Positions 2,750 to 17,700 of a DNA stretch of 38,705 nucleotides are shown one piece after another; the stretch's first letter is position 1; each line of letters begins with the position of its first letter. The translations under genes were made by a program, and so were the position numbers. The notes below the pieces were generated by a model. It had not been told where the DNA came from, ran no database searches, and saw only the letters and a program-made list of their open reading frames with translations. Source of the DNA: Propionibacteriaceae bacterium (GTDB lineage Bacteria; Actinomycetota; Actinomycetes; Propionibacteriales; Propionibacteriaceae); the NCBI GenBank assembly GCA_031271975.1, contig JAISUR010000028.1:1-38705 (forward strand), in the 5' to 3' direction.

Positions 2750-2824
2750 AACTCAAGCTTACTTGAAGCATCCGACCCATCCTCCAGGTGTTGGTGCTGG
2801 ATACGATGGCAGGCGACGGTGAAA

Positions 2825-3844
2825 CTACGGCGAGCCGAGGGGATGCTGATGATCGAAGGTGATGCCGCATTGGCCGCGGATTTCATCGAGAATCTCCATG
2901 ATGCCCACGCTTTGCGACACGGGCAGGGTTGGTGATTCCGTTCTTCCTTCCGCGACGCAGCGCGCCACCTCAGCCAGCTCATACTCGTAGCCGCGGGCAC
3001 GCGTCGGGTGCTCCCAGACATCCCGCTCGCGGCCTTCGCGTTGGAACTCCAGCCGGGTCGGGGCCCACCATTCGTGGGCCAGTCGCACGAGCATGTCAGT
3101 CCCGCCGATATAGACGTCCTGCGGAGTGATCACGTTTATTGACGCCACGGCGGTGGCGTGGGCGTTCGGGTAGCTCAGCAGGGCTGTCGTGTGGGCGTCG
3201 ACTCCGGTGTCCGTGAAGATCGACCGCGCTGTGATCGAACTGGGCATGCCAAACAGGTCCACGATGAAACTGACTGGATAAATGCCCCTGTCCAGCAGCG
3301 CGCCGCCGCCGAGCGAACGGCTGAATATCCGCGACGCCGGGTCGTACGGGTCGCGGTAACCAGAGTCAACGTGCGCATAGCGCAACTCGCCGAGTTGCCC
3401 GGAGCTGAGCCGATGGCGCAGTTCGACCATGTGCGGCAAGAATCGGGTCCACATGGCTTCCATGAAGAAGATCCCTTTGGCCACAGCAAGACTCGCCAAG
3501 CTGTGTGCCTGCGCGGCATCGAGCGTGATGGTCTTTTCGAGCAGCACCGGCTTGCCCGCGTCGAGTGCCTGCGTGGCGAGTTCTGCGTGCGTGTTGTTGG
3601 TCGTCGCGATGTAGACGACGTCCACGTCCGGCTTGTCCAAGACCGCCTCATACGTGCCGGCAAATGGAACGTCATAGCGTTGGGCGAAAGCCTGGGCGCG
3701 CTCAGCGGAACGCGAGCCGACAGCTACCAGACGCTGCCGGGTGGCGGTTCGCAGGCATTCGGCTACGATTCCGGCGATCCAGCCCGGACCGAGAAAACCC
3801 CACCTCAGCCCAGGAGCGTCGAGCGGATCAGGTATGAGCGCCAT
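2825..3844 (-). CDS. Gfo/Idh/MocA family oxidoreductase
   Basis: A 339-residue protein of usual length for the family. The N-terminal Rossmann motif GFLGPGWIA lies near residue 16. VDVVYIAT then NTHAELATQALDAGKPVLLEKT follows, where the usual EKP is EKT. The C-terminal half has MEAMWTRFLP and GGGALLDRGIYP, which place it near the dihydrodiol dehydrogenase or sugar 1-dehydrogenase-like branch. It would oxidise or reduce a sugar or related alcohol with NAD(P). The ATG lies three bases after the methylglyoxal synthase stop (TGACCCATG), so the two genes are almost certainly one operon and translationally coupled. The exact substrate is not predictable. Confidence 0.85.
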   Translation of the reverse strand: MALIPDPLDAPGLRWGFLGPGWIAGIVAECLRTATRQRLVAVGSRSAERAQAFAQRYDVPFAGTYEAVLDKPDVDVVYIATTNNTHAELATQALDAGKPVLLEKTITLDAAQAHSLASLAVAKGIFFMEAMWTRFLPHMVELRHRLSSGQLGELRYAHVDSGYRDPYDPASRIFSRSLGGGALLDRGIYPVSFIVDLFGMPSSITARSIFTDTGVDAHTTALLSYPNAHATAVASINVITPQDVYIGGTDMLVRLAHEWWAPTRLEFQREGRERDVWEHPTRARGYEYELAEVARCVAEGRTESPTLPVSQSVGIMEILDEIRGQCGITFDHQHPLGSP

Positions 3845-3847
3845 GGG

Positions 3848-4309
3848 TCACTCCTGGTCGCGCGAGTCGGTTATCACCACTTCGCCGTCTACCACTTCGA
3901 CGGTACGCGGGTCGAAGTCGGGTTTCAGCGGTTCGTAGTCTCCCTCGAACAGGGGAGAGGAGATGATCATGTCGGCGGTGGCCGTGTTGCATGCGTATGG
4001 GACATTCCACAGCGTCGCCAGCCGCAGCAGCGCCTTGACATCGGGGTCGTGCGGTTGTGGCGATTCCGGGTCCCAGAAGAAGAAAAGGGCGTCCAGTTTT
4101 TGTGTGGCGATCATGGCGCCGATCTGCTGGTCGCCGCCTTTCGGGCCGGACAACAGCCGCGTGACGCTCAGGTGAGTCTCGGCCTCAATGATGGACCCGG
4201 TGGTTCCCGTGGCAAACAACTCGTGCCGGGCCAATACCGGTTTGTTCCAAGCGCACCACTCAAGCAGGGCTCCCTTGCAGTCGTCGTGCGCAACCAATCC
4301 GATCCTCAT
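3848..4309 (-). CDS. mgsA: Methylglyoxal synthase
   Basis: A 153-residue protein converting dihydroxyacetone phosphate to methylglyoxal and phosphate, a bypass of lower glycolysis used to relieve sugar-phosphate stress. The family signatures are clear: LVAHDDCK at the start, FATGTTG near residue 36, and the phosphate and catalytic loop SGPKGGDQQIGA. The last of these carries the catalytic Asp. FFFWDP with PHDPDVKALLRLA and NVPYACNTATAD follow. The start at 4309 was chosen because AGGTGG sits six bases upstream and MRIGLVAHD matches the usual N-terminus; a longer start at 4336 is possible. It forms a tight pair with the downstream Gfo/Idh/MocA oxidoreductase, which may act on a related carbonyl or sugar (inference). 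Confidence 0.93.
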   Translation of the reverse strand: MRIGLVAHDDCKGALLEWCAWNKPVLARHELFATGTTGSIIEAETHLSVTRLLSGPKGGDQQIGAMIATQKLDALFFFWDPESPQPHDPDVKALLRLATLWNVPYACNTATADMIISSPLFEGDYEPLKPDFDPRTVEVVDGEVVITDSRDQE

Positions 4310-4383
4310 CGTTCCCACCTTTCTGGAGCCATCCACTCTAGCCGGGCGTGTGGCACGGCTGGGGGATTTGGGGGCGGGGCAAG

Positions 4384-4731
4384 CTAGGGCGTACGCAGAA
4401 TTGACGACATCTTCTTGCCTTTGGCGACCTCGTCTATCAGCTTGTCCAGGTAGCGGATCTTCTGCATCAGCGGATCCTCGATGTCCTCGACTCGAATTCC
4501 GCAGATCACTCCCTTTATGAGGTGGGCGTTCGGGTTGATTTGCGGGGCTTGGTCGAAAAACTCAGTGAAGTTGGCCTCGCTGTCGAGGGCTGTGGCCAGG
4601 CCTTGCGCGTCGTAGCCGGTGAGCCAGCAGATCACCTGGTCAAGCTCCGCCTTGGTGTGGCCTTTCCGTTCAACCTTTGCCAGCCAATGCGGATAAACGC
4701 TGGCGACACTCATGGCGAAGATGTTCCTCAT
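4384..4731 (-). CDS. DUF2200 family protein
   Basis: A 115-residue protein strongly resembling DUF2200 along its whole length: MSVASVYPHWLAKVERKG at the start, ICWLTGYD near residue 36, QAPQINPNA and IKGVICGIRVE in the middle, and EDPLMQKIRYLDKLIDE near the end. The family has no assigned function and is found in many bacteria. The ATG overlaps the stop of the upstream rhodanese gene by four bases (ATGA), with GGAGG upstream. The two proteins are therefore probably made together. A longer reading frame in register extends upstream inside the rhodanese gene, but it has no family similarity there. Confidence 0.9.
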   Translation of the reverse strand: MRNIFAMSVASVYPHWLAKVERKGHTKAELDQVICWLTGYDAQGLATALDSEANFTEFFDQAPQINPNAHLIKGVICGIRVEDIEDPLMQKIRYLDKLIDEVAKGKKMSSILRTP

Positions 4732-5567
4732 GGGGTTTCCTCCTCGGTGGCGGCGGGCCAGTCGGTGTGTGACCACTGCGACCAAGAGCCCGGATAGAGC
4801 GCCCCCTGGTATCCCGCGATGGTGAGCGCGGCGATCTCGTGGCAGGCAGTCACTCCGGAGCCGCAGTAGGCGGCCAGCGGGCGGCCCGGCCTGACGCCCA
4901 AGGCGGCGAAGCGCTTCCGCAGTGCGTACGGCGGTAGAAAGCGCCCCGACGTTGTGAGGTTGTCTCCAGTCGCGGCCGAGACCGCGCCTGGGATGTGGCC
5001 GGGCCGTGGGTCGATGGGCTCGGTGAGGCCGAGATATCGTTCTTTGGCGCGGGCGTCCAGCAGGACTCCTCCTGCGTCGGCGAAGCTGGCTGCTTCGTCG
5101 ATGCCGATCATTGGGAGCGCCAACGCGTCCGGGAGTGTGACGTTGCCCGGCTCGGGAGTGGTTGGCCCGGTTTCCAGCTCCAGGCCAGCCGCAATCCACG
5201 CGGGCAAAGCCCCATCGATGAGGTACGATTCGACGCCCGAGGCAGTCAAGAGCCACCAGGCGCGCGCCGCGGACATGTTGCCAGCTTGGTCATAGATATA
5301 GGCCACGTCGCCGTCGTTCAGGCCCCAGGAGCGGGCCGCCGTTTGAAATGCGCCGAGATCGGGCAATGGGTGGCGCCCGTCTTCGGGCGTCGGGGGTGAA
5401 GCAAGGTCTTTGTCCAAGTCGACGTACACCGCTGAGGGGAGGTGCCCGGCCAGATACTCGTCGTACGTGTTCGGGTTGCCGAGCTGCCAGCGGACGTCAA
5501 GCACTTTCACGCCAGGGCCAAGTGTCTCCGCTGCCGACTGGGGCGATATCAGAATGTTCGTGTTCAT
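4728..5567 (-). CDS. sseA: Thiosulfate/3-mercaptopyruvate sulfurtransferase (tandem rhodanese)
   Basis: A 279-residue protein with two rhodanese domains. The N-terminal domain (about residues 10-125) has VLDVRW, AGHLPSAVYVDLD and DQAGNMSAARAWW and lacks a catalytic Cys, as usual. The C-terminal domain (about 155-275) has LLDARAKERYLG and PGHIPGA, followed by the active-site loop YCGSGVTA with the nucleophilic cysteine. The CGSGVTA form is typical of 3-mercaptopyruvate or thiosulfate sulfurtransferases, which transfer sulfane sulfur to cyanide, thioredoxin or another thiol acceptor. The start MNTNIL at 5567 fits the family; a longer frame to 5624 is possible but has an unusual leader. The gene overlaps the following DUF2200 gene by four bases. 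Confidence 0.9.
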   Translation of the reverse strand: MNTNILISPQSAAETLGPGVKVLDVRWQLGNPNTYDEYLAGHLPSAVYVDLDKDLASPPTPEDGRHPLPDLGAFQTAARSWGLNDGDVAYIYDQAGNMSAARAWWLLTASGVESYLIDGALPAWIAAGLELETGPTTPEPGNVTLPDALALPMIGIDEAASFADAGGVLLDARAKERYLGLTEPIDPRPGHIPGAVSAATGDNLTTSGRFLPPYALRKRFAALGVRPGRPLAAYCGSGVTACHEIAALTIAGYQGALYPGSWSQWSHTDWPAATEEETP

Positions 5568-5668
5568 CGGCACAACGGTACCGCCCGGGGCCATTGCGGG
5601 GCCATTGTTGGGCGCCCGGCCCAATCAATGAGCGAAAACCGCTGACTTGTGGCACAATCAGATGGCTT

Positions 5669-5750
5669 GCCCAAGTGGCGGAATGGCATACGCGGTCGGC
5701 TCAAACCCGGCTGTCCTTTGGACATGGAGGTTCGACTCCTCTCTTGGGCA
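5669..5750 (+). tRNA. tRNA-Leu (anticodon CAA)
   Basis: The acceptor stem gcccaag/cttgggc closes a class II tRNA with discriminator A. The anticodon stem GTCGG/CCGGC carries loop CTCAAAC, giving anticodon CAA for codon TTG, which is common in this window. A long variable arm (TGTCC-TTT-GGACA) and the T loop TTCGACTC are present. No CCA is encoded. Confidence 0.95.
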
Positions 5751-5756
5751 CAAGCA

Positions 5757-5779
5757 AAACCCCTATTCAGGGGCGGTTT
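5757..5779. terminator. Hairpin between tRNA-Leu and the Rpn-like gene
   Basis: CCCCT-ATTC-AGGGG at 5760-5773 is flanked by AAAA and a GGTTT run, extending the stem. It sits seven bases after the tRNA and overlaps the stop codon of the opposing gene. It may therefore end transcripts from both sides. Confidence 0.55.
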
Positions 5780-6701
5780 CAGGCGACCTTTGAATTTGGG
5801 AGACTTCGCTGATGCTGACGTCCACAAGGCCGCAAATATCTTCCGCTGACAGCCCTCGCGACAGCATGTGCCGTATGACACGGGTTCGTTCGGCCGACTG
5901 ACCGTCGTTCTTGCCCCGCTGGATGCCTTGCTGGAGGCCCTGTTTGAGGCCCTGTTCGAGGCCCTGTTCGAGGCCCAGCCGGAGTCCTTCTTCGCGGGCG
6001 TCCTCCAAGTCGTCGTGCATTCGGCTCAAGTAGTCACGCTCGACCTTCTCCTGGGCCGCCAGCTGCAGCCGGAAGATGTCGTCTTCTGACCAGCGGCGCA
6101 CGGCGTCGGCTGCCTTGGCGATCACGGGATCAAGTTGTGCTGCCATGTCCAACTCCTCCGCACTTTGGGCCGCTATAAATCTCATCCATTTCCACAATTG
6201 TGTGCCGTCCCCGGCCTGGGGAACCTTCCGCAGTTCAAGGGTATCGATTTCCAAGGCGTCAGAGAACACCTTGCCGGTGGCGGGTTCAGACATCAGAAAC
6301 CGATGGTGGTACCCCTCGTCATTTGACAGGTTCTCGCCCACGATCAACACCGTTACCGCGCGGCCCAACTGGTCATATCGCTCGCCACTGTGAAGCTGTT
6401 CGGCGAGCATCCGAGCGGTGTAATAGGCGATGCGAGGAGGCAGGCGACGCGTCACCCGCAGTTGTATCTCGACGTCGACATGCTCGCCCGTTCCCAATTG
6501 GGCCCGCACGTCCAGCACTGGTCCCTTTTGGCCTCCGCTCTCGACTTCCAGCTGGGTCTTCAGCAACTCGACGCGCGCGAAGGCGTCGGCGGGTAAGTCC
6601 AACACGGCACGCAGCAGTGCTATTAGAAACTCCTTGTTCTCTTCGTCGCCGAAGATGTGTTTGAACAACAGATCTGTGCGTGGCGGAATGACTTCAGCCA
6701 T
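5763..6701 (-). CDS. Rpn-family PD-(D/E)XK nuclease / transposase-like protein
   Basis: A 312-residue protein. The N-terminus PPRTDLLFKHIFGDEENKEF and the following LDVRAQLGTGEHVDVEIQLR form the PD-(D/E)XK-type nuclease domain seen in Rpn (recombination-promoting nuclease) and PF12784 proteins. The E-x-Q variant of the catalytic motif is usual for them. Around residues 240-265 is a Gly/Gln-rich repeat of the type G-L-E-Q, which is also characteristic, followed by an HTH-like C-terminal tail (MLSRGLSAEDICGLVDVS). Such proteins promote RecA-independent recombination or act in anti-phage defence. The start has AAGGGAG five bases upstream. The stop lies inside the hairpin next to tRNA-Leu, so this may be a small tRNA-associated insertion, but no repeats marking its ends were seen. 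Confidence 0.85.
   Translation of the reverse strand: MAEVIPPRTDLLFKHIFGDEENKEFLIALLRAVLDLPADAFARVELLKTQLEVESGGQKGPVLDVRAQLGTGEHVDVEIQLRVTRRLPPRIAYYTARMLAEQLHSGERYDQLGRAVTVLIVGENLSNDEGYHHRFLMSEPATGKVFSDALEIDTLELRKVPQAGDGTQLWKWMRFIAAQSAEELDMAAQLDPVIAKAADAVRRWSEDDIFRLQLAAQEKVERDYLSRMHDDLEDAREEGLRLGLEQGLEQGLKQGLQQGIQRGKNDGQSAERTRVIRHMLSRGLSAEDICGLVDVSISEVSQIQRSPETAPE
5934..5976. repeat. 12-bp tandem repeat, about 3.6 units
   Basis: Units of GAGGCCCTGTTC (first copy ends TTT) start at 5934, 5946, 5958 and 5970, the last one partial. They encode the E-Q-G-L repeat in the Rpn-like protein. The unit length keeps the frame, so copy-number change would alter length without switching the gene off. Confidence 0.85.
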
Positions 6702-6929
6702 GGTTCTCCCTTGAAAAGTGGTCTGCGGACGACTCTCGGCCGCGCCACTCCATAATGGTTGTCGGCATGGACAAAAAGCGGGCCCCTTGACTGTGTAAAT
6801 GCCACGCGGCTAGGCAAAATAGTGTTTGTTCGCCTTAAGCGAACTCTGCAGGCCAAAGGTGAGTTGTCCGGGGGATAGAGTTGTGGTCCAACTCCACGTG
6901 GGGTAGCGAAGAGCAGCTTGGAGCGGCAA
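6702..6929. promoter_or_regulatory. Divergent intergenic region (Rpn-like gene / PocR-AraC regulator)
   Basis: This 228-bp spacer must hold the promoters of both divergent genes. AT-richer stretches lie at 6760-6840 (for example AAAATAGTGTTTGTTCGCCTTAAGC, split here only for description of position 6817-6841). I could not identify a clear -35/-10 pair or operator. Confidence 0.35.
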
Positions 6930-8102
6930 ATGGAAGCCTTGGCGCGGGCTGCGGCCGACTGGACGGCCGTCAGCGGTGTCTCCACCTGCGTCTTCGGGTT
7001 TGCCGAACGGGGGCTCATTGGCGGAACGGACGGTCATTTCTGCACGGTGTCCTGCCCTCTGGCCGCGGACGGCACCTGTGATCCACAGGTTGCGCACCGA
7101 TTCGGGTCTTACGAGGCGGAACGCTGGGGTGGGGAATACATCTATTACTGTCCGGCATCGCTGGTTTTCGCCGCCACGCTGACTTGGGAGGACGGGCTCC
7201 CCACGCATGGCCTGGTATGCGGGCCGATCGTTATGGGCCCGGCCGAAGATCTGCTGGGGGACTTTCTCCCTCAGTGGCGCCCGTTGATCGCCACATTGCC
7301 CGTACGCACGCCTGCCCAGGTTGGGTCACTTGCCCGCGTCCAACGGACGTTTAGCCGCGCGCTCGCAGACGCCGAGGTTCCGACAGCGCACGACGACGCT
7401 GTCCCGCCGGGAGCCCCCGGTGAGGTCGCCCCGCACCTGGTTGCGGTCGAGCAGCGCTTGGTGGCGATGATCCGGCGTGGTGACAAGGCCGGCGCCGCTG
7501 GGCTGATCAATCAACTGCTCGGCGCGCTCTATCTGGCCACGGCAGGCGACGCTGCCCAGTTGCGGCAAGGAGCCGCGGAACTGGTCACCTTGTTCTCCCG
7601 CGCGGCCATCGACGGCGGGGCAGACGCCGACGCCATTTTCGGCGAGAAGCGGGTGCTCGACGCGAGGCTCGCGTCGTGCGGCGACGTAGACGACTTGTCC
7701 GGCTTCTTGGTCTCCGTGTTCAACAGGTTCGTCGGCTACGTCTTCGACTTCTCGCAATTCCAGCACGCCAACGCGTTGCGCAAAGCGGTCGATTATGTGC
7801 GCGGACACTACCGAGAGCACATCACGCTGGCCGAGGTGGCTCGCGAGGTGTTCCTTTCCCGCAGTTACCTCAGTTCGGTGTTTTCGGCCGAAATGGGGAT
7901 GAGTCTCACCGCGTACCTGCGAAAAGTCCGCGTCGACAAGGCCAAACAACTCCTGCTGGGCACTGACCGCGCGGTCGCTGACATCGCTGCTACGACCGGC
8001 TTCGCCGACCAGTCGCACTTCACGCGGGTTTTCACCAAGCACGTCGGTGTCTCGCCCACGCAATTCCGCCGCACTTCGAAAACGGATACAAATCACCGTT
8101 AG
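6930..8102 (+). CDS. PocR-domain AraC-family transcriptional regulator
   Basis: A 390-residue regulator. The N-terminal part (residues 1-140) matches the PocR sensory domain: FCTVSCPLAADGTC, then YYCPASLVFAATL and HGLVCGPIVMGP. Its conserved cysteines and the Y-x-C-P motif are present. PocR domains are thought to bind small hydrocarbon derivatives. The C-terminal 100 residues are an AraC double HTH: ITLAEVAREVFLSRSYLSSV and IAATTGFADQSHFTRVF, ending VGVSPTQFR. ATG 6930 has GGAG six bases upstream; a TTG at 6918 is an alternative. It lies 73 bp upstream of mtaB on the same strand. It is therefore the obvious candidate activator of the methyltransferase operon, possibly also co-transcribed with it. 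Confidence 0.9.
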   Translation: MEALARAAADWTAVSGVSTCVFGFAERGLIGGTDGHFCTVSCPLAADGTCDPQVAHRFGSYEAERWGGEYIYYCPASLVFAATLTWEDGLPTHGLVCGPIVMGPAEDLLGDFLPQWRPLIATLPVRTPAQVGSLARVQRTFSRALADAEVPTAHDDAVPPGAPGEVAPHLVAVEQRLVAMIRRGDKAGAAGLINQLLGALYLATAGDAAQLRQGAAELVTLFSRAAIDGGADADAIFGEKRVLDARLASCGDVDDLSGFLVSVFNRFVGYVFDFSQFQHANALRKAVDYVRGHYREHITLAEVAREVFLSRSYLSSVFSAEMGMSLTAYLRKVRVDKAKQLLLGTDRAVADIAATTGFADQSHFTRVFTKHVGVSPTQFRRTSKTDTNHR

Positions 8103-8175
8103 CGCGTTCTATGCCTCCCGTGGCATGCGGGTCAGGATTGATCCTGTTCACCGCAGAACGGCGAAGCGAGGTTCC

Positions 8176-9540
8176 ATGCCCAGAGAAGTCTTCCAAGGCG
8201 TCGAGTATTCCGATCCGACTGCACTCGTCTTCGGGCGGGCTGCCCGCCCGGTCAAGACGCGCGCGGGGCTGGAGATCGGCGGCGGCCTGGTCTATCCGGA
8301 GCTCAACTTCACGTTGCCCCCGATGCTGGTGGACGCCGCCGCGATGCCCGAAGTGTTGGCCAACTACCGCGAAGTGACGGCGGCTGTCTGCAAGCGCGCC
8401 GCCGAACTGGACGTGCCCGGATTCGTGATTGAGATCGAGACGCTGCCGCCGATGACATTCAATCCTGCCTGGGGCGTGGACGTTACCAAGGTGGTGGTGG
8501 ACACGATCGCCGAGGCGGACGCCCGGGCGGTGGTGCGGATCACGCCCAACGACATTCGCGAGGGCCGCGAGCTGGAGCATATGTGGCACGGCCGGCACTG
8601 GGACGCCATATTGGAGACGTTCGCCGGAGCGGCAGCGGCAGGCGCGGAACTGCTGGCCATCGAATCTGTGGGCGGCAAGGAAGTCCATGACGAGGCCACT
8701 ATGTACTGCGATCTGGCTAAGTCGGTGTTCGCGCTAACGGTCCTGGGCGTGCGGGACATGGAACGGCTCTGGGCGGCCATCGCCCAGATAGCGGCCCAGA
8801 CGGACACAGTGGCGGCCGGGGACACCGCGTGCGGTTTTGCCAACACGGCGATGGTGCTGGCCGAGAAGAATTACATTCCACGGGTTTTCGCCGCTGTGGT
8901 CCGCGTCGTATCGGCCATCCGCAGCCTGGTCGCGGTTGAATGCGGTGCGCGTGGCCCGCACAAGGATTGCGGCTACGAGGGCGTCTACGTGAAGGCGATC
9001 TCGGGCATCCCCATCTCCATGGAGGGCCGAACGGCGGCTTGCGCCCACTTTTCCCCGGTTGGGAACATCGCCGGCTGCGCGGCGGATTTGTGGAGCAACG
9101 AATCCATCCAGAACGTCAAATTGCTCGCCGGACCTGCTCCGAGCGTTAGTTTCGAACAACTCGCCTACGACTGCCGCCTGTTCAACGCCGCCAGCGCCCA
9201 AGGCTGTGAGAAAGCCTTGTGGTTGCGCGATCTGCACGCGGCTTCGGACGCTTCGCTCGATCCGCAGGCCTATGTGCTGCGTCCTGACGTCGTGGTCAAG
9301 CTGGCCGCTCAGATCGTGCGGGTCGACGGCGACTATGAGCGCGGCAAGACCGCTGCCCAGTTGACGTTGGACACCTTGCGTGAGGCGCATGCCACTGGCG
9401 AGTTGCGGCTGGACGACCGGGAGCAGATGTGGTTGGAGACGCTCTCGGCCGACGCGGACGCGCTGCCGGAGACGCCGGAGCAATTGTTGGCGGACATGGT
9501 CGACGCGGAAGCGTTCGATCCAAAGCACTACGACCTGTGA
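8176..9540 (+). CDS. mtaB: Methanol:corrinoid methyltransferase, MtaB-like
   Basis: A 454-residue protein, close to the 461 of Methanosarcina barkeri MtaB. In that enzyme Glu164, Cys220 and Cys269 bind the catalytic zinc. Here E163 (in AIESVGGKEVHDEA), C219 (GDTACGFANTAM) and C265 (GPHKDCGYEG) occupy matching positions, so the active site looks intact. GRTAACAHFSPVGNIAG and LRPDVVVKLAAQIV are further family-like stretches. The enzyme would split methanol or a similar methyl donor and pass the methyl group to the cob(I)amide of the downstream MtaC. The ATG has a CGAGG-type ribosome site. It is the first structural gene of an operon with mtaC, an activator and a DUF2284 gene. Methanol is inferred as substrate from the family; other methyl donors are not excluded. 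Confidence 0.93.
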   Translation: MPREVFQGVEYSDPTALVFGRAARPVKTRAGLEIGGGLVYPELNFTLPPMLVDAAAMPEVLANYREVTAAVCKRAAELDVPGFVIEIETLPPMTFNPAWGVDVTKVVVDTIAEADARAVVRITPNDIREGRELEHMWHGRHWDAILETFAGAAAAGAELLAIESVGGKEVHDEATMYCDLAKSVFALTVLGVRDMERLWAAIAQIAAQTDTVAAGDTACGFANTAMVLAEKNYIPRVFAAVVRVVSAIRSLVAVECGARGPHKDCGYEGVYVKAISGIPISMEGRTAACAHFSPVGNIAGCAADLWSNESIQNVKLLAGPAPSVSFEQLAYDCRLFNAASAQGCEKALWLRDLHAASDASLDPQAYVLRPDVVVKLAAQIVRVDGDYERGKTAAQLTLDTLREAHATGELRLDDREQMWLETLSADADALPETPEQLLADMVDAEAFDPKHYDL

Positions 9541-9566
9541 TACTGGGAATCGGAGAAAGGGACGAC

Positions 9567-10202
9567 ATGTCAATAGTTGAGAACCTGTCTGAGGCGGTGC
9601 AGAAGGGCCGGATTAAGGATGTTCTGGCGCTCATCGAAGAAGGTCTGGGTGAGGGCGTCTCGGCGCAGGAAATGCTCGACGACGGCCTGTTGCGGGGTAT
9701 GAGCCTGTTGGGTGCGCGCTTCAAGAACAACGAGGTGTTCGTGCCCGAGGTGCTCATCGCCGCGCGCGCGCTGAACAAGGGCACTGAGGCCTTGAAGCCC
9801 AAGCTGATCGAGGCCGGTGTGCAAGCGCGCGGGCTCGCCGTGATCGGGACGGTCAAGGGCGACTTGCACGACATTGGCAAGAATCTTGTCAAGCTCATGA
9901 TGGAAGGCGCCGGTTTTGAGGTCGTTGACTTGGGCGTGGACGTGTCCGATGACGCGTTCGTGGCCGCCGTCGCCGAACGCAAGCCGGATGTGCTGTTGCT
10001 GTCGGCGCTGCTCACCACGACGATGCGCCAGCAGGAGTCCGTCATCAAGGCGGTCGCAGCGGCGGGGCTGCGCGACAAGGTGAAGATCATGGTCGGCGGA
10101 GCCCCGATCACGCAGGGCTTCTGCGCGGAGATCGGGGCTGACGGGTACGCTCCCGACGCTGCGTCGGCCGCTGAGGTGGCCGCGACTTTCCTGGCGGCAT
10201 AG
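9567..10202 (+). CDS. mtaC: Corrinoid protein, MtaC-like
   Basis: A 211-residue B12-binding protein. Residues 1-85 form the helical cap domain (LLRGMSLLGARFKNNEVFVP). The Rossmann-like domain begins with GTVKGDLHDIGKNLV, whose D-x-H-x-x-G motif supplies H101 as the lower ligand to cobalt. SALLTTTM and VGGAPIT complete the cobamide site. It carries the methyl group between MtaB and an acceptor methyltransferase not found in this window. It starts 26 bp after mtaB with AGAAAGG upstream, and four bases separate its stop from the activator gene. A longer in-frame start inside mtaB has no support. The paralogous families MttC and MtbC look similar, but the MtaB neighbour settles the name. Confidence 0.93.
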   Translation: MSIVENLSEAVQKGRIKDVLALIEEGLGEGVSAQEMLDDGLLRGMSLLGARFKNNEVFVPEVLIAARALNKGTEALKPKLIEAGVQARGLAVIGTVKGDLHDIGKNLVKLMMEGAGFEVVDLGVDVSDDAFVAAVAERKPDVLLLSALLTTTMRQQESVIKAVAAAGLRDKVKIMVGGAPITQGFCAEIGADGYAPDAASAAEVAATFLAA

Positions 10203-10206
10203 GTGA

Positions 10207-11712
10207 ATGGATAAGGTCAGCCCCACTGACAGCGGTATCTTGGCGGATGCGTTGGCCGCCAACGGCCACAACCTGCCCATGCCCTGCCGCGGCCGCCACA
10301 CTTGCGGCAAGTGCGGCGTGTATCTGGCTGGCGCCGCTGAGCCTCCGGGCGATGTCGAACAGTCGCTGCTGGCACGCAACCCGGCGCCGCAGTTGCCCGG
10401 ATACAGTTGGCGGTTAGCCTGCCTGGCGCGTATTCGCTCCGAGGTGTCGATTGTCGCGTCGTCCGTGGCCGGTGTGGTCGTCGCCGATGTGGGCATGGAG
10501 CTTGTGGAATACGACGGGGACGCGCCCGCGTCGCTGGGCTGCGCGGTCGATGTCGGAACCACCACTGTCACATTGCTGCTCTTCCGGCTCGGCGACAGGG
10601 AGCGTGTGGCCGATGTCAGCGAACTCAACCAGCAGGTGGTTCATGGCGCGGATGTGCTCAGCCGCATTGACGCGGCGGCGCAGGTGGGCGTCGCCGCGCT
10701 GCAGTCCCTGATCTTGGCCCAGTTGCGGCGCATGCTCTCGCGGGCCCTCGACTCGGCCGGAGCATGCGCGGCGGATGTGAGCCGGGTGGTGATCACGGGG
10801 AACACCACAATGCTGCACCTGCTTACCGGCCGCCCAGTGGCTTCGCTGGGGGTGTTCCCGTTCACGCCGGATACCCGCTTTGGACACGCGATGCCGGCAT
10901 GCGCGGTCTTCCCGCAGTTGTCGGCCGAGCTCTACCTTCCGCCGGCGATCTCCGCCTATGTCGGCCCAGACATCGTCTGCGGAATCCTGGCCACCGGGTT
11001 GGGGACCCATGGGCGTCCCGAAGTGCTCATTGACGTGGGCACGAACGGCGAGATGGTGCTCGTCGCACATGGCCGCACGCTGTGTTGTTCGACGGCGGCG
11101 GGCCCGGCGTTTGAAGGCGCGGAGATTTCCGCCGGCATGCCCGCGCTGCCCGGGGCTATCGACGGCGTGTGGGTGGACAACGGCCAGGTCGCATATTCCA
11201 CGATTGGGAAAAGACGTGCCCGCGGCATTTGCGGCACGGGTCTGATAGGCGCCGTGGACACGTGCTTGGCGCTGGGCGTGCTCGACGAAACCGGGGCGTT
11301 GGACGCGGATTTCCGCGTCGGGGATTCGGGTATCAGCATCACCCAGGCGGACATCCGGAAGTTGCAGCTCGCCAAGGCCGCCATCGCGGCCGGCGTTGAC
11401 ACGCTCCTGTCCGAAGCCGGGTTGGCTCCAAGCGCCGTGGCAAAGCTCGAATTGGCCGGTGGCTTCGGGAGCTATCTGCAGGCGGAGCCTGCCGCGGCGA
11501 TCGGCTTGTTCCCGCGCGTGCTGGCAAGCGCGGTGGATCCGGCTGGCAACACCGCTCTCGCGGGCGCCGTCTTGTTGACGCTGTCCCGGCGCGCGCGCGA
11601 CGCGGCCGCCCGCATAGCCGCTGAAGCGGAAGAGATCCCGCTGGCCGCCAACGCGGTGTTCCTGGACCGCTACGTGGAAAACATGGCGTTTCCGGAAGCA
11701 GGTGGGCCGTGA
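10207..11712 (+). CDS. Reductive activator of corrinoid methyltransferase ([2Fe-2S] + ASKHA ATPase, RACo-like)
   Basis: A 501-residue protein. The N-terminal ferredoxin-like part has cysteines 27, 33, 36 and 72 (CRGRHTCGKC and RLACLA), spaced as in plant-type [2Fe-2S] centres. The rest is a DUF4445/RACo ASKHA ATPase with phosphate loop AVDVGTTTVTLLLF, VITGNTTMLHLLTG, IDVGTNGEM, AGPAFEGAEIS and ELAGGFGSYL. Such proteins use ATP to drive one-electron reduction of inactive cob(II)amide on MtaC-type proteins back to cob(I)amide. A TGA directly precedes the ATG, so the protein cannot be longer; its [2Fe-2S] domain begins about 15-20 residues later than usual. Four bases separate it from mtaC and it overlaps the DUF2284 gene by four. 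Confidence 0.9.
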   Translation: MDKVSPTDSGILADALAANGHNLPMPCRGRHTCGKCGVYLAGAAEPPGDVEQSLLARNPAPQLPGYSWRLACLARIRSEVSIVASSVAGVVVADVGMELVEYDGDAPASLGCAVDVGTTTVTLLLFRLGDRERVADVSELNQQVVHGADVLSRIDAAAQVGVAALQSLILAQLRRMLSRALDSAGACAADVSRVVITGNTTMLHLLTGRPVASLGVFPFTPDTRFGHAMPACAVFPQLSAELYLPPAISAYVGPDIVCGILATGLGTHGRPEVLIDVGTNGEMVLVAHGRTLCCSTAAGPAFEGAEISAGMPALPGAIDGVWVDNGQVAYSTIGKRRARGICGTGLIGAVDTCLALGVLDETGALDADFRVGDSGISITQADIRKLQLAKAAIAAGVDTLLSEAGLAPSAVAKLELAGGFGSYLQAEPAAAIGLFPRVLASAVDPAGNTALAGAVLLTLSRRARDAAARIAAEAEEIPLAANAVFLDRYVENMAFPEAGGP

Positions 11713-12239
11713 AGAGCCTCGTCCAGGCTGCGTTGGACTTCGGGTTCTCGCACGCCGGCCTTCTCGATGTGGCGACGCTCGCCGTGCGCCCGGAAGTCCG
11801 CGACATGTGCGCCGCCGACTTGTGCAGCCAATACGGCCGCTGCTGGGTATGCCCTCCGGGTTGCGGCACGTTGGACGACTCCCGAAAGCTGCTGGCTGGC
11901 TTCAAGGCGGGCTTGCTGGTCCAGACCACTGTTGTCCTCGAAGACGAGTACGACTACGAGGCCATGTTGGCGGCGGGGGAGGAACACCGCAGGTTGGTCG
12001 CCGACTTCCGCCATGAGCTGTGGCCGCGGTTTCCCAAGTTGGTCGCGCTCGGCAACGGCGCCTGCACCATCTGCGACCCGTGCACGTATCCGGACGCTCC
12101 GTGCCGTTACCCAGAGCTCGCCGTGCAGTCCATGGAAGCGCTCGGCTTGGTGGTCTCGGATGTTTGCGCTGCCAACGATTTGCCTTATTACCACGGGCCC
12201 GGCACGTTGACTTACACGGGGTGCTACCTGCTGATCTGA
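11709..12239 (+). CDS. DUF2284 cysteine-rich putative metal-binding protein
   Basis: A 176-residue protein with two cysteine clusters. Residues 34-52 hold C34, C39, C45, C48 and C52 (GRCWVCPPGCG). Residues 119-132 hold C119, C122, C125 and C132 (ACTICDPCTYPDAPC). This pattern is typical of DUF2284, predicted to bind a metal or Fe-S cluster; no function is known. The GTG start overlaps the activator stop (GTGA), so translation is coupled and the gene clearly belongs to the methyl transfer operon. It may help electron delivery to the activator or cluster/cofactor maintenance, but this is inference from position only. Confidence 0.85.
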   Translation: MKSLVQAALDFGFSHAGLLDVATLAVRPEVRDMCAADLCSQYGRCWVCPPGCGTLDDSRKLLAGFKAGLLVQTTVVLEDEYDYEAMLAAGEEHRRLVADFRHELWPRFPKLVALGNGACTICDPCTYPDAPCRYPELAVQSMEALGLVVSDVCAANDLPYYHGPGTLTYTGCYLLI

Positions 12240-12305: not shown

Positions 12306-12377
12306 ATGTTACCGAAAAGGTTTGCGAAATCGTTGACTGTCCTGCTTGGGGGGTAGTACATTGGCGGCATGTTACCG
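12306..12377. promoter_or_regulatory. Direct repeat ATGTTACCG flanking the GH127 promoter
   Basis: The nonamer ATGTTACCG occurs at 12306-12314 and 12369-12377, one copy on each side of the predicted promoter. A related TGTTAGC lies at about 12276. TGTTA-type half sites resemble those bound by LacI-family sugar regulators, so operator function is plausible but unproven. Confidence 0.4.
12333..12362 (+). promoter_or_regulatory. Predicted promoter of the GH127 gene
   Basis: TTGACT (12333-12338) and TACATT (12357-12362) are separated by 18 bp in an AT-rich spacer. This is a good match to a housekeeping sigma promoter 60 bp upstream of the start codon. Confidence 0.5.
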
Positions 12378-12424: not shown

Positions 12425-14734
12425 ATGTCAATGATGACAACCGGTTCACTATCACGCCGGACTATGCTGCAAATCATGCTGGGAGGCAGTTTGGCCATGG
12501 CTGGGGCACTCCGGCCGGCCTTCGGCGCCACCGTGTCGAAGCCGATGCCGCTGGGACCTGCGCTGGGGGCTCCCGGCAACATCGCCGGCTGGAGCGTGGC
12601 GCCGTTCGCATTGGGAGAAGTGCAGTTGAGCGCCGGGAGCGTATTCCAACGGGCCGTCGACGAGCAGTTGACGTTCGCCCGCAACTTCCCGACCGACAGC
12701 TTCCTCACGGTCTTCCGCGTCAACGCCGGCCTGCAGACATCCGCTACTCCAGCCCCGCCCGGCGGCTGGGAGGGATTCCCGAACGCCGGGGTCACTCGGG
12801 CCATCACGCAACAATGGGGTCCCGCGGAGTATCCGCCCGCTGAAGGCAAGAACTCCGGCGCGGACGGCTGCTTGCGCGGCCACTACGGCGGACACGCGCT
12901 GACCATGCTGGCGATGACGTACGCCGCCACCCAAGACGCCACCATCTTGGCAAAGCTCAACGCCTATGTGACCGGCATGAAGGAATGCCGCGACGCGCTG
13001 GCGCTGATGACCTACAACTCGCAGCCGCGCTACTCCCATCCGGGATTCTTCTCCGCCTATGGCGAGTGGCAGTTCTCGGCTCTGGAAGCCTACGCCCCCT
13101 ATGGCGAGATCTGGGCCCCCTACTACACGCTGCACAAGATCCTGCAAGGCTTGACCGACGCCTACCGCTACGCGGGTTCCACGGACGCGCTAGACATCGC
13201 CGAAGGCATCGGACACTGGGTCTATTCGCGCCTGTCGAAGTGCACCACGGCCCAATTGCAGCGCATGTGGGGTATCTACATCGGCGGCGAGTACGGCGGT
13301 ATGAACGACGCGCTGATCGACCTGTATCTGCTGTCGTCCGACCCTGACAAACAGGAGTTCTTCGATGCGGCCAAGCTGTTCGACCTGGACACGATCATCG
13401 ACTCGTGCGCGAACGGCCAGGACGTCCTCAACGGCAAACACGCCAACCAGCACATCCCGCAGATCACCGGCTACGCCAAGCTGGGCGTCTTGGAGCCCGA
13501 CGCGACGGCGCGGGCGCGCTACTTGGCTGCGGCGGCCGGTTTCTTTGGGCAGATCGTTCCCGGCCGCATGTATGCGCACGGCGGCACCGGCGAAGGCGAG
13601 ATGTGGGGCCCGGCCAACACGGTCGCAGGCGACATCGGCTCGCGCAACGCCGAGTCCTGCGCCGCGTACAACATGCTGAAAGTGGCCCGGACGCTGTTCT
13701 TCGCCGACCAGCAGCCCAAGTACATGGACTACTACGAGCGGACGCTGCTCAACCACATCCTCGGCGGCCGCGGCGATGGCACGAAGTACACGACGCTGCA
13801 CAACACGACGTCCCGGCAGACGCCTGGCAACCTGTACATGTATCCCGTCGGCCCCGGCCAAACCAAAGAGTACGGCACGGGCAACATCGGCACCTGCTGC
13901 GGCGGCACCGCCCTGGAATCGCACTCCAAGTACCAAGACTCCATCTACTTCTACGCGGCCGATGGCAAGGCGCTTTGGGTGAACCTGTTCATGCCGTCGG
14001 TGGTGACCTGGGCAGACGCCGGGCTGACGCTGAAACAGGAGACGAGCTATCCCGAGGATGAGACTTCCGTGCTGACCATCCAGCAGGCTCCGATCGGTGA
14101 GTTCTCGCTCAAGATCCGCATCCCCGGTTGGTGCACGGGCGCCACGGTCAAGGTCGGCGCGGGAGCGGCCACCGAGGTCGCCGGGGGCCAGTATTACGAG
14201 GTCAAGCGGACTTGGAGCGCCGGCGACACGGTGACGTTGAACTTCCCGATGCAGTTGCGCACGGAGGCCACCGTCGACCGCCCAGACATCCAGTCATTGA
14301 TGTACGGCCCGACGGTGTTGAACGGCCTGTCCAGCCAGACCACGTACCTGAAGCAGTCGTTCTACAAGAACTACCGCCTGGACGGCACGATGGGGCTCGC
14401 CGGAGCTGCCACGGCCACGCCGAACACCTTCATCGTGAACGGCATCACCTATGAACCGGCCTACAACGGCAACAACGACCCGTACCACATGTACTTCCAA
14501 GTCGCGGAGGACACTGTCGCCTTCGCCGGTGTGGATACCGGGCTGGCCAATGTGGCCAAGTCCGACGGCACTACCCTGCTGGACGCGATCTGGGCGGGCG
14601 CCCCGTTCGCGGACAAGGCGGCGTTCCTCAGACAAGTGCAGGAGGTGACCAAGGCCTTCCAAGACGATGGCCTGATATCACTGCGGGCCAGACAGGAAAT
14701 CCTGGTGGCCGCCGGCCGGGCGCGGATGGCGTGA
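12425..14734 (+). CDS. Secreted GH127 beta-L-arabinofuranosidase-like glycoside hydrolase
   Basis: A 769-residue protein with a Tat-type leader (SRRTMLQIMLGG, then hydrophobic residues to about 35), so it is exported folded. The body is GH127/DUF1680. In the reference enzyme HypBA1 a cysteine nucleophile and a Zn(Cys)3Glu site act with a glutamate acid/base. Here CC at 491-492 (TCCGGTALESHSKYQDSIYF), E410 and C412 (AESCAAYNMLKVAR), and E390 or E392 (GTGEGEMWG) match that layout. It would release arabinofuranose from plant glycans or hydroxyproline-rich glycoproteins. The last 50 residues form a helical tail that may be a FIMAH-like module. AAAGGAG precedes the ATG by a few bases. The secreted multidomain gene follows after 13 bp, so the two form an operon. 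Confidence 0.9.
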   Translation: MSMMTTGSLSRRTMLQIMLGGSLAMAGALRPAFGATVSKPMPLGPALGAPGNIAGWSVAPFALGEVQLSAGSVFQRAVDEQLTFARNFPTDSFLTVFRVNAGLQTSATPAPPGGWEGFPNAGVTRAITQQWGPAEYPPAEGKNSGADGCLRGHYGGHALTMLAMTYAATQDATILAKLNAYVTGMKECRDALALMTYNSQPRYSHPGFFSAYGEWQFSALEAYAPYGEIWAPYYTLHKILQGLTDAYRYAGSTDALDIAEGIGHWVYSRLSKCTTAQLQRMWGIYIGGEYGGMNDALIDLYLLSSDPDKQEFFDAAKLFDLDTIIDSCANGQDVLNGKHANQHIPQITGYAKLGVLEPDATARARYLAAAAGFFGQIVPGRMYAHGGTGEGEMWGPANTVAGDIGSRNAESCAAYNMLKVARTLFFADQQPKYMDYYERTLLNHILGGRGDGTKYTTLHNTTSRQTPGNLYMYPVGPGQTKEYGTGNIGTCCGGTALESHSKYQDSIYFYAADGKALWVNLFMPSVVTWADAGLTLKQETSYPEDETSVLTIQQAPIGEFSLKIRIPGWCTGATVKVGAGAATEVAGGQYYEVKRTWSAGDTVTLNFPMQLRTEATVDRPDIQSLMYGPTVLNGLSSQTTYLKQSFYKNYRLDGTMGLAGAATATPNTFIVNGITYEPAYNGNNDPYHMYFQVAEDTVAFAGVDTGLANVAKSDGTTLLDAIWAGAPFADKAAFLRQVQEVTKAFQDDGLISLRARQEILVAAGRARMA

Positions 14735-14747
14735 GGGGGTGCTTGAG

Positions 14748-17700
14748 ATGAAGAAGATCGCATCGTTCGCAGCAGCCGCAGCTCTGGCGCTCGGCTCATT
14801 GGTTTATGTCACGTCTGAGGCGCACGCCGACCCGGTGAATGTCGCCTCGGCGACCGGAATCCTGCCCCCGGCCATCGACGTCGACGTCAAGAACTCTTGG
14901 AATGACTACACCAAGCTCAACGACGGCGCTTGGAACGTCACGGCAAACAACGCGACTTGGGCCACCTGGGGCACCTCGAAGCTGACAAACTGGGCCACCT
15001 ACACGTGGACTGAGCCGGGCGTGAAAGTGTCGTCGATCAAGGTGACCTTCAACACCAACTGCCGCACCGGCGACTGCGGTGTGCACCTGCCCGCTTCGTT
15101 CTCCCTGGAGTACCTCAATTCCGGCGGAAGCTGGGTCGCGGTCGATAGCTTCGCCCATGACTATCCGGGCCGGTACGACGCTTCGGCCAACCCGACCGGC
15201 GCCGACGAGACCTTGGCCGACGTGTTCGGCCCGTACACCGCGACATTCACCGAAGTCAGCACCACGGCGCTGCGGCTGAACGTGACCAAGCGGCAGTCGG
15301 AGAGCCTCGGCATCGGCGTCACCGAATGGGAGGTTTACGGCGGCCTTGGCGAGTTGGATCCGGATCCGGGCCCCGCCAAGCAGTACATCTCCTTCGAGGA
15401 TGTGTCCGTCCGCACGACGACCGGCGTGGCTCCCACGCTCCCAGCCGCGATCTGGGCGATCACGCCGAACGGCCCGCTCGACCCAGCGGTGCCCGTCACT
15501 TGGGCGTCCGTCTCGGCTTCCTCGTATGCGGCCCCCGGGTCGTTCACGGTCACGGGCACCATCGGAACGGACACGGCTGTCAGCGCCAAGGTGTATGTCG
15601 CCGCGGCCCCGTCGTCCACGATCACAGCAGTTTGGGACGCGTCGACCATCACGGCGGCCGGAACCGCCCCGGTGTGTCCGGGCCGCGTGACGGCCACCTT
15701 TGACGATGACACCGAGGAGTCGGTGGCGGTCACTTGGGCGGCGGCTGCGGCTACTGACTACGACGAGCCAGAAGACATGGGCTACGTGTTGGGCACGGTT
15801 GCGGGCACTGCCGCACAGCCGGTCTGCTGGTTCTTCGCCGTCGACCCGGTGGTGCAGAACAACCCGATCGTCTCGATCCGCTTTGAATCAGCCCCGGGTT
15901 CGTCGGGCTACTATCAGACCGCTCCGAAGTTCACGCTGGCACTCGAACGCGGCATAGCCACGGACAAGATCGTGTCGGCGGAGTATTCGCTGGACGGGGG
16001 TACGACGTGGGAACGCTACAACGGCAAGACGACGATCAGCTTGGAGGGCGTTGTCGAGGTGCGCGCCCGCGCCACATCCGAGGGCGGCTACACCGGAAAT
16101 GACGCGGCCCAGGTGAAGATCGACACCCACGCGCCGGTGACGACGGGCACCTACGTGGTGACCGGGCGCACGGCCGTGGTCGATCTGGATCCGTCGGACG
16201 GCGACAACGGGTCGGGCGTGACCCGCACCCTTTGGTCATTCGGTCCGTCCAGTTCGCCCACCAGCCAGGACAACTCGATGTGGGGCACCTACGAGGAGTC
16301 GGAGAAGATCAGCGTCACACTCGGCCGCGACGGCCCTACGTATGTGCATTTCCGCTCTGAGGACGCCGCGGGCTTCTCGGAAGCCAACAAGACCATCACG
16401 TTGCCCGCCGTCCAATACTGGGTGGCCGCATTCAACATGAATGGGCATGGCGCCCAGATCACGCAGGTGGAGGTGTTGCCGGCCGATCAGGTGAACAAGC
16501 CTGCCGATCCCTTCGAGGAGGGGGCTGTCTTCAAGGGTTGGTACACCGATTCGGGGTTGACCACGCCTGTCGAGTGGCCGCTGACCCTGACCGCCGACGT
16601 CACGCTTTACGCCAAGTGGCTGCCGCTCGACTTGGAGTCTGCGGTGGCGGCGCTGGCGGAGACCGTGCAGCGGATGATCGACGACGGCACGCTGGACAGC
16701 TACACGGACGAAAGCGTGGCCGCCGTGGTGGCGGCGCTGGAAGACGTCAACGACTTGTTGGCAGATCCGGGGACTTCGGCCGTCGAACTAGACGCCGGGC
16801 ATTCGGCCTTGTTGGATGCGCTGGCAGCGCTGGTGCCCAAGTCGTCGGCGGGCGGCGCCAACGAGGCGATCCTGCTGGGATTGATCGACACGGCGACCAA
16901 GATTCCGACCGAGCGCTACACCGACGAGTCGGTGGCGGTGTTCCTCGCCGAGATCGAGGACGCGCTTGCTGTCTTGGCCGATGCCGGGCGCACCCAAGAT
17001 GATTTGGACCAGGCGCTGGCCGAGTTGCTGGACGCCGTGGCGGGTCTGAAGCTGCACTATGTCGCCCAGGTGAAGGCGAACGTGGTCTCGCTCAACATCG
17101 CGAAGAAGAAGACGTTCCAGCTCGCCGCGTTCGGGTACGTCACCGACGGCTCCACGCAGAATGTGGCCTCGTACGTTTCGAGCGATCCGGCCGTGGTTAC
17201 GGTGGACACCAAGGGGAAGGTGAAGGGCATCGCGGTTGGCGCCGCGACGATAACGATCACGTCTGTTGGCGACGGGGAGGCTGGCGTCCCAGCCACGCTG
17301 ACGATCCCGGTGAACGTCGTGGCGAAGTCCGTTGGGCCGAAGAAGGTTACGGCCAATGTGCCGGCTGCTTTGGAGCCCGGACAGGTGGTGCCGATCGTGC
17401 CCGTGATCGAGGCGGATGCCGCGACACCGTCCAAGGTCACGTTCAAGACGTCTAACAAGAAATACGCCGTCATCGACGCCGCGGGAATGCTGCGCGCGGT
17501 GGCTCCGGGCAAGGTGAAGATCACTGTCTATGCCGGCTCGAAGAAGAAGGCGTACACGGTTGCCGTCGCGCAGATCATCCCAGCCACGCCGGTGATTTCC
17601 GGAGAGGCCCGGGTGGGCCAAGTGTTGACGGCCGATCCGGGGGCATGGGGCCCCGGCGCGGTGGACCTCTCCTACCAGTGGTACCGCTCGGGCAAGGCGG

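Follow-up and report, generated by a model that had tools for sequence, protein, structure and literature searches.

What would a methanol methyltransferase do in an actinomycete, and where would its methyl group go? The question is raised by positions 6930–12239 of contig JAISUR010000028.1 from a Propionibacteriaceae bacterium (assembly GCA_031271975.1), which carry genes for the methyltransferase MtaB and its corrinoid partner MtaC. The contig was analyzed whole and is called the window here; it comprises 38,705 bases of a 2.70-Mb genome with a completeness of 99.86% and a contamination of 0.1%. In guts, methanogens and acetogens compete for the methanol derived from pectin and lignin. If the reading developed below is true, an actinomycete that takes the methyl group of methanol, and is neither methanogen nor acetogen, would form a third gut sink.

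A five-gene methyltransferase operon

The locus is a compact array of five codirectional genes on the plus strand, and from its gene content we read it as an operon for a small-methyl-donor:corrinoid methyltransferase, with methanol as the predicted donor. It encodes an AraC-type transcriptional regulator (6930–8102; HTH_18, 91 bits; ATG start, with a TTG at 6918 possible), the zinc enzyme MtaB, a methanol:corrinoid protein methyltransferase (8176–9540; PF12176, 510 bits for a cut-off of 25), the corrinoid methyl carrier protein MtaC (9567–10202; B12-binding, 100 bits, and B12-binding_2, 61 bits), a RACo-type reductive activator with a 2Fe-2S and an ASKHA domain (10207–11712; RACo_C_ter, 218 bits, Raco_middle, 136 bits, and Fer2, 22.6 bits for a cut-off of 21), and a DUF2284 protein (11709–12239; PF10050, 148 bits). 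With the starts checked, the intergenic gaps are 73, 26, 4, and −4 bases. An earlier interpretation of the same DNA, made from its letters and hereafter called the sequence-only reading, had described a complete MtaB–MtaC–activator module linked to a regulator on one strand; the open reading frames (ORFs) and Pfam matches bear this out, and the DUF2284 gene is additional to it.

The residues expected to hold the zinc and the cobamide are kept, and both sets had been named correctly. In MtaB, the ligands are E163, C219, and C265 for the start at 8176 (E176, C232, and C278 in the 467-residue reading from 8137). They align with E164, C220, and C269 of the Methanosarcina barkeri chain 2i2x_A, which we take to be the zinc ligands of that enzyme, and the Glu/Cys/Cys positions are invariant across nine aligned sequences, the window protein and eight relatives. 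In MtaC, the cobamide His is H101 counted from the ATG at 9567 (H99 in the alignment numbering) and lies within the motif GDLHDIGKN, invariant in nine aligned sequences including that of the window.

Placement of MtaB

MtaB proteins have been reported to split into a methanogen clade and an acetogen clade (PMC5770442). We compared the window protein with MtaB from a sample of the phylum of the Oscillospiraceae genome G589 (L and G numbers denote loci and genomes). There, 31 of 398 genomes gave an MtaB match, and 27 loci were used, G589 being already included and G627, G781, and G868 being fragments. The window MtaB is 47–57% identical to 19 of these proteins, nine of them with MtaA nearby, and 34–35% identical to eight methanogen-like ones that group with M. 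barkeri. On the NCBI MtaB model NF040651 (equivalog cut-off 720), the window protein reaches 374 bits; two MtaA-linked bacterial MtaB are also below the cut-off (406 and 432) and one methanogen-like MtaB is above it (731), and the cut-off appears to mark methanogen-type MtaB. By sequence comparison, the window MtaB is placed on the bacterial, acetogen-type side of the family, outside the methanogen clade. We named this side acetogen-type because a pterin-binding MtaA lies near mtaB in 9 of the 27 loci (two of them scanned with Pfam) and all four such genomes searched contain CdhC, the acetyl-CoA synthase marker (PF03598); the label rests on this linkage, not on the species names of the sampled loci.

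The phylogeny agreed with this placement. In a tree of 105 sequences, built by a quick method with supports from the Shimodaira–Hasegawa-like approximate likelihood ratio test (SH-aLRT) and no bootstrap, the window MtaB groups with L012, L013, L022, and L037 (five sequences, SH-aLRT 99). Sister to this clade, and its nearest kin outside the family, are two Oscillospiraceae metagenome-assembled genomes (MAGs; L014 and L021, SH-aLRT 96), and all sit inside a clade of 50 sequences (SH-aLRT 95), mostly from Bacillota and spirochaetes. Our MtaB trees omit 12 sequences shorter than 330 residues and the repeats L001, L006–L010, and L092–L094, and the 105-sequence tree also omits L149, L153, and L156. 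The sequence-only reading had considered that MtaB might fall into a degenerate or nonmethanol family; instead, the protein scores like MtaA-linked bacterial MtaB and branches on their side, and methanol use is predicted for it.

Partner proteins and regulator

The solved chain nearest to MtaC is 1y80_A (206 bits), which we take to be the Moorella corrinoid protein Moth_1224; the methanogen MtaC in 2i2x scores lower (93 bits). No NCBIfam model scored above its cut-off on MtaC, the best being MtgC_2 with 208 of 370 bits. For the activator, the nearest solved chains are 3zyy and 4c1n, presumably from Carboxydothermus, matched through the middle and the ASKHA C-terminal domains over residues 108–496 of 501. 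The protein has the RACo/RamA-type architecture of an Fe-S domain plus an ASKHA domain, and its partner, in contrast to those of 3zyy and 4c1n, would be MtaC, as the operon suggests.

The neighborhoods of related mtaB genes were studied in a set of 82 close-relative loci, consisting of the best 80 of 87 candidates, L095, and L096, after the removal of L097, which lacks a full mtaB, from 83. All counts of neighboring genes are lower bounds because many contigs end near mtaB. DUF2284 occurs within 7 kb of mtaB in nine close-relative loci, eight of which also have RACo there. Seven of its Cys residues are invariant in 11 aligned sequences, its predicted structure is confident (predicted local distance difference test, pLDDT, 89), and no solved chain matches its profile. 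The invariant Cys residues, the place after RACo, and the company of RACo in eight of nine loci suggest that DUF2284 is a probable Fe-S electron carrier to RACo.

The regulator had been described as PocR/AraC. Its AraC part stands on the HTH_18 match, whereas the PocR domain (PF10114) gave no Pfam match in the window protein up to an E value of 0.05. Among four orthologues (cut-off 23.9), PF10114 scores above the cut-off in L014 (30.6), below it in L012 (21.8) and L097 (17.6), and is not matched in L037; judging from these orthologues, the window regulator is probably of the PocR-sensor kind. It would probably activate the operon. In 25 of the 82 close-relative loci, the neighborhood of mtaB includes AraC-family ORFs that share a similarity cluster without all being PocR-type, and homologues of the window regulator are found in 14 of the 27 phylum-sample loci.

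The missing acceptor enzyme

The pterin-binding MtaA of acetogens (MT2) was not found in the window genome: the Pterin_bind profile matches in two places only, FolP, which by our reading adjoins a FolE-like ORF, and MetH. Across 13 genomes (nine with mtaB or its remnant and four without), this profile matches in 30 places; of these, a profile of acetogen MtaA (437–531 bits for its member sequences) picks up just the 12 MetH-type ORFs, at 115–178 bits. A dedicated MT2 was absent from all nine MtaB- or remnant-bearing genomes searched. Among the 82 close-relative loci, searched with the acetogen-MtaA profile, a Pterin_bind ORF lies near mtaB in L033 only and is an 804-residue MetH. Nor did any coenzyme M methyltransferase score above the model cut-off in the window genome. 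The lack of MtaA and MtrH asserted by the sequence-only reading holds for pterin enzymes of this type across the genome.

CdhC had no match in the window genome; it was present in all four MtaA-linked control genomes and in 4 of the 18 genomes searched overall. Acetogenesis is improbable in this organism, given that no acetyl-CoA synthase was found, and for that reason assimilation would be the most likely fate of the methyl group. MTHFR and MetH are both present. The methyl acceptor had earlier been left open, with tetrahydrofolate given as an example. It is not settled here either, and tetrahydrofolate has become the weaker candidate because the acetogen MT2 is missing and the MtaB of some relatives lies beside methionine or cysteine genes, as described below.

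The window genome further encodes two URO-D proteins, both on other contigs and neither at the score of HemE; on the MtaA, MtbA, and MtaA/CmuA models they reach 20–61 bits, far below the cut-offs. Called by score, a non-HemE URO-D protein occurs in seven of eight MtaB-bearing genomes (G000, G552, G554, G555, G578, G583, G449, and G590; the exception, G583, has a HemE-like gene only), or in eight of nine when the Oscillospiraceae genome G589 is added, versus one of six MtaB-free genomes of the genus, a set picked by us (Fisher p 0.011). In a tree with duplicates removed, these URO-D partners form several families, not one, and one of the two proteins of the window genome has a relative in L144 of G533, a genome without MtaB. 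MtaA/CmuA-like proteins with an HICGN motif are encoded beside mtaB in L013 (171 bits) and, upstream of the gene, in L095 (144 bits), both below the cut-off of 235. Instead of serving as the acceptor, the URO-D proteins may act as additional demethylases.

Two other contigs of the window genome carry genes that touch on methyl transfer. C8 (L215, 1812–6671) has a gene resembling URO-D methyltransferases next to an AraC-like ORF and, by our reading, sugar-type ATP-binding cassette (ABC) transporter genes; ABC genes together with a URO-D gene likewise come after mtaC in L022 and after mtaB in L077. On C20 (L230, 6803–13452), a distance of ∼3.4 kb separates a stand-alone homocysteine S-methyltransferase from a glycyl radical enzyme accompanied by activase-like and ProC-like ORFs (both by reading), and the homocysteine S-methyltransferase has no recognized methyltransferase gene beside it. 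In each of the other Propionibacteriaceae searched, PF02574 matches once, within a frame of MetH size (671–1,239 residues). A weak PF01717 match in the window genome (28 bits) is not specific to MtaB-bearing genomes.

Sulfur genes beside mtaB in relatives

In the close-relative loci, mtaB is repeatedly found near genes of sulfur amino acid metabolism. By BLAST, with MtaC-driven MetH matches set aside, 13 of the 82 loci have MetY or CysK no farther than 5 kb from mtaB, versus 1 of the 27 phylum-sample loci. A profile search adds L080, for a total of 14 of 82, and within 2 kb of mtaB it finds MetY in eight loci and CysK in seven. The 13 loci (L016, L017, L026, L030, L033, L036, L039, L043, L057, L058, L068, L072, and L078) belong to Bacillota, an Anaerolineaceae, and a spirochaete MAG, and some also contain MetA, MetH, MTHFR, NifS, MnmA, or Rrf2. 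The order is MetY–CysK–MtaB–Rrf2 in L072 and Rrf2–CysK–MtaB in L016, each on one strand; in L068, MetA, Rrf2, and MetY are divergent from MtaB; in L036, to which L058 is near-identical, MtaB–MtaC–MnmA is followed by CysK and a MetA–homoserine dehydrogenase fusion; and L033 combines MetY, MtaB, MetH, and MTHFR. Ten of the 13 lack an MtaC-like ORF within 7 kb, and the trait requires 11 changes on the MtaB tree.

This linkage hints that the methyl group may end up in methionine or a thiol and is a more novel lead than the window operon. The association of MtaB with MetY, CysK, MetA, MTHFR, and MetH would make a conversion of methanol to methionine directly testable. We considered, and did not adopt, an argument from the lack of methionine synthases: in the 12 sulfur-linked genomes searched (L058 was left out as near-identical to L036), whose completeness is not given, 6 lack MTHFR above the cut-off, 4 lack PF02574, and all 12 lack PF01717; G990, G993, G996, and G1000 lack all three, G996 having one MTHFR match below the cut-off. 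All four MtaA-linked controls also lack PF02574 and PF01717, however, and the pattern proves little.

Distribution and origin

The sequence-only reading had called the module unusual for an actinomycete, and the samples agree: MtaB turned up in a single genome, the window genome itself, among 394 sampled from the class and in 7 of 198 sampled from Propionibacteriaceae (4 of 141 among the better genomes). Two of the seven are fragmentary, that of G583 starting at a contig edge and that of G449 being a remnant only. All or part of the module is held by five other Propionibacteriaceae genomes. Of the four relatives closest in the tree, L012 (G555) and L022 (G554) are from the same genus, L037 (G578) is from the same family, and L013 (G590) is from an Actinomycetes bacterium. 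All five genes occur together in L012 and L013, in orders different from that of the window; L037 has mtaB, mtaC, and the regulator, L022 has mtaB and mtaC, and the L096 contig covers the end of mtaB, two mtaC, the regulator, and part of RACo before it stops. In L097 (G449, 2544–9016), mtaB is reduced to ∼50 codons, and a URO-D gene, two mtaC, the regulator, RACo, and DUF2284 persist.

The same genus also contains a divergent MtaB (52% identity) in L095 (G552, 8026–11082), which groups, on a long branch, with six Bacteroidia sequences including Symbiothrix (SH-aLRT 95). The grouping with Bacteroidia and the absence of MtaC from the stretch of L095 examined suggest a second acquisition in the genus. 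For the window operon, acquisition by a Propionibacteriaceae lineage from Clostridia-like gut bacteria is probable. An origin in Coriobacteriia was rejected on the placement in the class sample and the Propionibacteriaceae kin L012, L022, and L037. PMC7024585 assigns sample Emb289, from which L013 derives, to the termite Embiratermes; the samples Th196, Lab288, and Co191 behind other relatives are likewise termites.

Fate of the methyl group

From the protein families, we expect the zinc of MtaB to activate methanol, the predicted substrate, and to hand its methyl group to Co(I) on MtaC, and RACo to re-reduce MtaC after a slip to Co(II); both steps are strong by family. Electrons would probably reach RACo through DUF2284, and the PocR-type regulator, to judge from its orthologues, would turn the operon on. 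The methyl group on MtaC could then go to homocysteine, by way of MetH or a homocysteine methyltransferase that stands alone, or to the pool of folates that supplies MetH. On the whole, we favor a methanol operon acquired without MtaA, the methyl group of which would be assimilated into methionine or the one-carbon (C1) pool through MetH-type enzymes, and we regard this account as evenly balanced between right and wrong. We prefer this fate because the genome has MetH and MTHFR, whereas the searches revealed neither the acetogen MT2 nor CdhC. A broader and rather doubtful extension, put forward tentatively, is that the MtaA-free MtaB clade as a whole is a methionine- or thiol-forming device, in which a corrinoid protein relays the methyl group of methanol to homocysteine or sulfide without methyl-tetrahydrofolate, and that the window operon is an actinomycete branch of a system spread among gut bacteria.

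Several points weigh against the favored account. The operon of the window genome has no linked methyl acceptor gene, methanol as the substrate is a prediction, and the non-HemE URO-D genes that accompany MtaB in the family point to other routes. The contrast in sulfur linkage between close relatives and the phylum sample is not significant (13 of 82 versus 1 of 27, Fisher p 0.09). Strong significance comes only from a chance model, in which 13 of 82 within 2 kb has p ∼1e-10 under our assumption of five such genes per 2.3 Mb. Finally, none of the Propionibacteriaceae loci has a sulfur amino acid gene beside mtaB (BLAST, 5 kb), and the linkage therefore bears on the window only through kinship.

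The association of URO-D genes with MtaB could mean that the URO-D-type proteins of the genome themselves take the methyl group from methyl-MtaC, with a thiol as the acceptor. The enrichment in MtaB-bearing genomes and the HICGN proteins beside mtaB in L013 and L095 agree with this, and a transfer to sulfur or selenium was proposed for MtaA-like proteins by Kountz and Balskus (PMC10418091). Yet the two proteins of the window genome have very low scores on the MtaA-type models, lie on other contigs, and in one case have kin in an MtaB-free genome, the partners are not one family, and G583 does with a HemE-like gene; we consider this route unlikely. The presence of MTHFR and MetH and the resemblance of MtaC to the MetH cobalamin domain (TIGR02082, 108 bits) would also suit a folate route without acetogenesis, in which MetH or an unrecognized enzyme methylates tetrahydrofolate and MTHFR oxidizes the product for electrons or C1 units, but the dedicated MT2 is found in none of the nine MtaB- or remnant-bearing genomes and such a route seems distinctly unlikely.

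Other features of the loci would suit a change of substrate: MtaB may have drifted to another small O-methyl compound, the URO-D partners being extra demethylases that feed the same MtaC. The URO-D genes beside ABC transporter genes in L022, L077, and, by ORF reading, contig C8 would fit, as would G449, where mtaB has decayed and the rest of the locus persists. The retained zinc ligands, the placement beside MtaA-linked MtaB, and the same-family regulators in the phylum sample argue against such drift, and we think it less probable still. An artifact is hardly credible. Because the family relatives are represented by MAGs or by genomes without a name, a chimeric contig, as the sequence-only reading had considered, or misbinned DNA might be suspected; but the GC content is even over the module (0.61–0.68), the genome is nearly complete and clean, the five MtaB of the window and related genomes form one well-supported clade, and a chimera is very unlikely because five other genomes of the family carry the module in whole or part. 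The growth cluster named by the sequence-only reading (Wag31/SepF) is indeed there, as FtsZ, SepF, and DivIVA, but these genes occur in other Gram-positives as well and do not by themselves decide between phyla.

Comparison with known systems

Methanol systems of the MtaABC type are described in the acetogens Acetobacterium woodii, Eubacterium callanderi, and Moorella thermoacetica (mtaA1B1C1; PMC13391211). The window resembles them in the tree side of its MtaB, shared with MtaA-linked loci, in its MtaC-type carrier, and in the family of its AraC regulator. It differs in lacking pterin-binding MtaA and CdhC, in its actinomycete host, and in having RACo and DUF2284 within the operon: among the 19 phylum-sample loci that are not methanogen-like, whose species are not confirmed as named acetogens, RACo lies within 5 kb in only two and DUF2284 in none. 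With the methanogen MtaABC of Methanosarcina barkeri (2i2x), the window shares the MtaB family, the zinc ligands, and the cobamide His of MtaC, whereas its MtaB belongs to the other clade and its genome has no coenzyme M methyltransferase above the model cut-off.

The nearest published idea is a thiol or selenol role of mlp clusters (PMC10418091). Like the type 1 clusters described there, the window operon has a corrinoid protein and a RACo-type activase and no tetrahydrofolate methyltransferase; unlike them, with several MtaA-like proteins each, it has MtaB, and none of its five genes is MtaA-like. Two further sources deal with rumen methanogens (PMC9469553 and PMC11323727). The literature searched, with most subscription papers outside it, contained no recognized report of MtaB in Propionibacteriaceae or in methionine synthesis. 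The parts of the module are all of known kinds. New, as far as these searches show, are its occurrence in Propionibacteriaceae, the absence of MtaA, and the linkage of DUF2284.

Flanking genes

On the 5′ side, the operon is preceded by a PD-(D/E)XK (PDDEXK_2) transposase-family gene on the minus strand (5763–6701; PF12784, 161 bits), adjoined by a tRNA gene (5669–5750, tRNA scan). No tRNA-end repeat that would bound an island was seen, the last 14–20 bases having no second exact copy in the window, and no cobalamin riboswitch reached the gathering score in the window. On the 3′ side, a GH127-type glycosidase gene (12425–14734, plus strand; PF07944, 216 bits) is probably a separate transcription unit; a promoter-like match at 12333–12362 lies in the gap before it and is weak, the region having two sites versus 1.0 in shuffles. 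Together with the glycosidase, a 1,128-residue protein with bacterial immunoglobulin-like (Big) repeats fills the stretch directly downstream of the operon (12425–18125). Near the contig end (33655–38602), where the GC content is lower (0.58–0.61), are the CRISPR-Cas genes Cas3, Cas5d, and Csd1, resembling type I-C.

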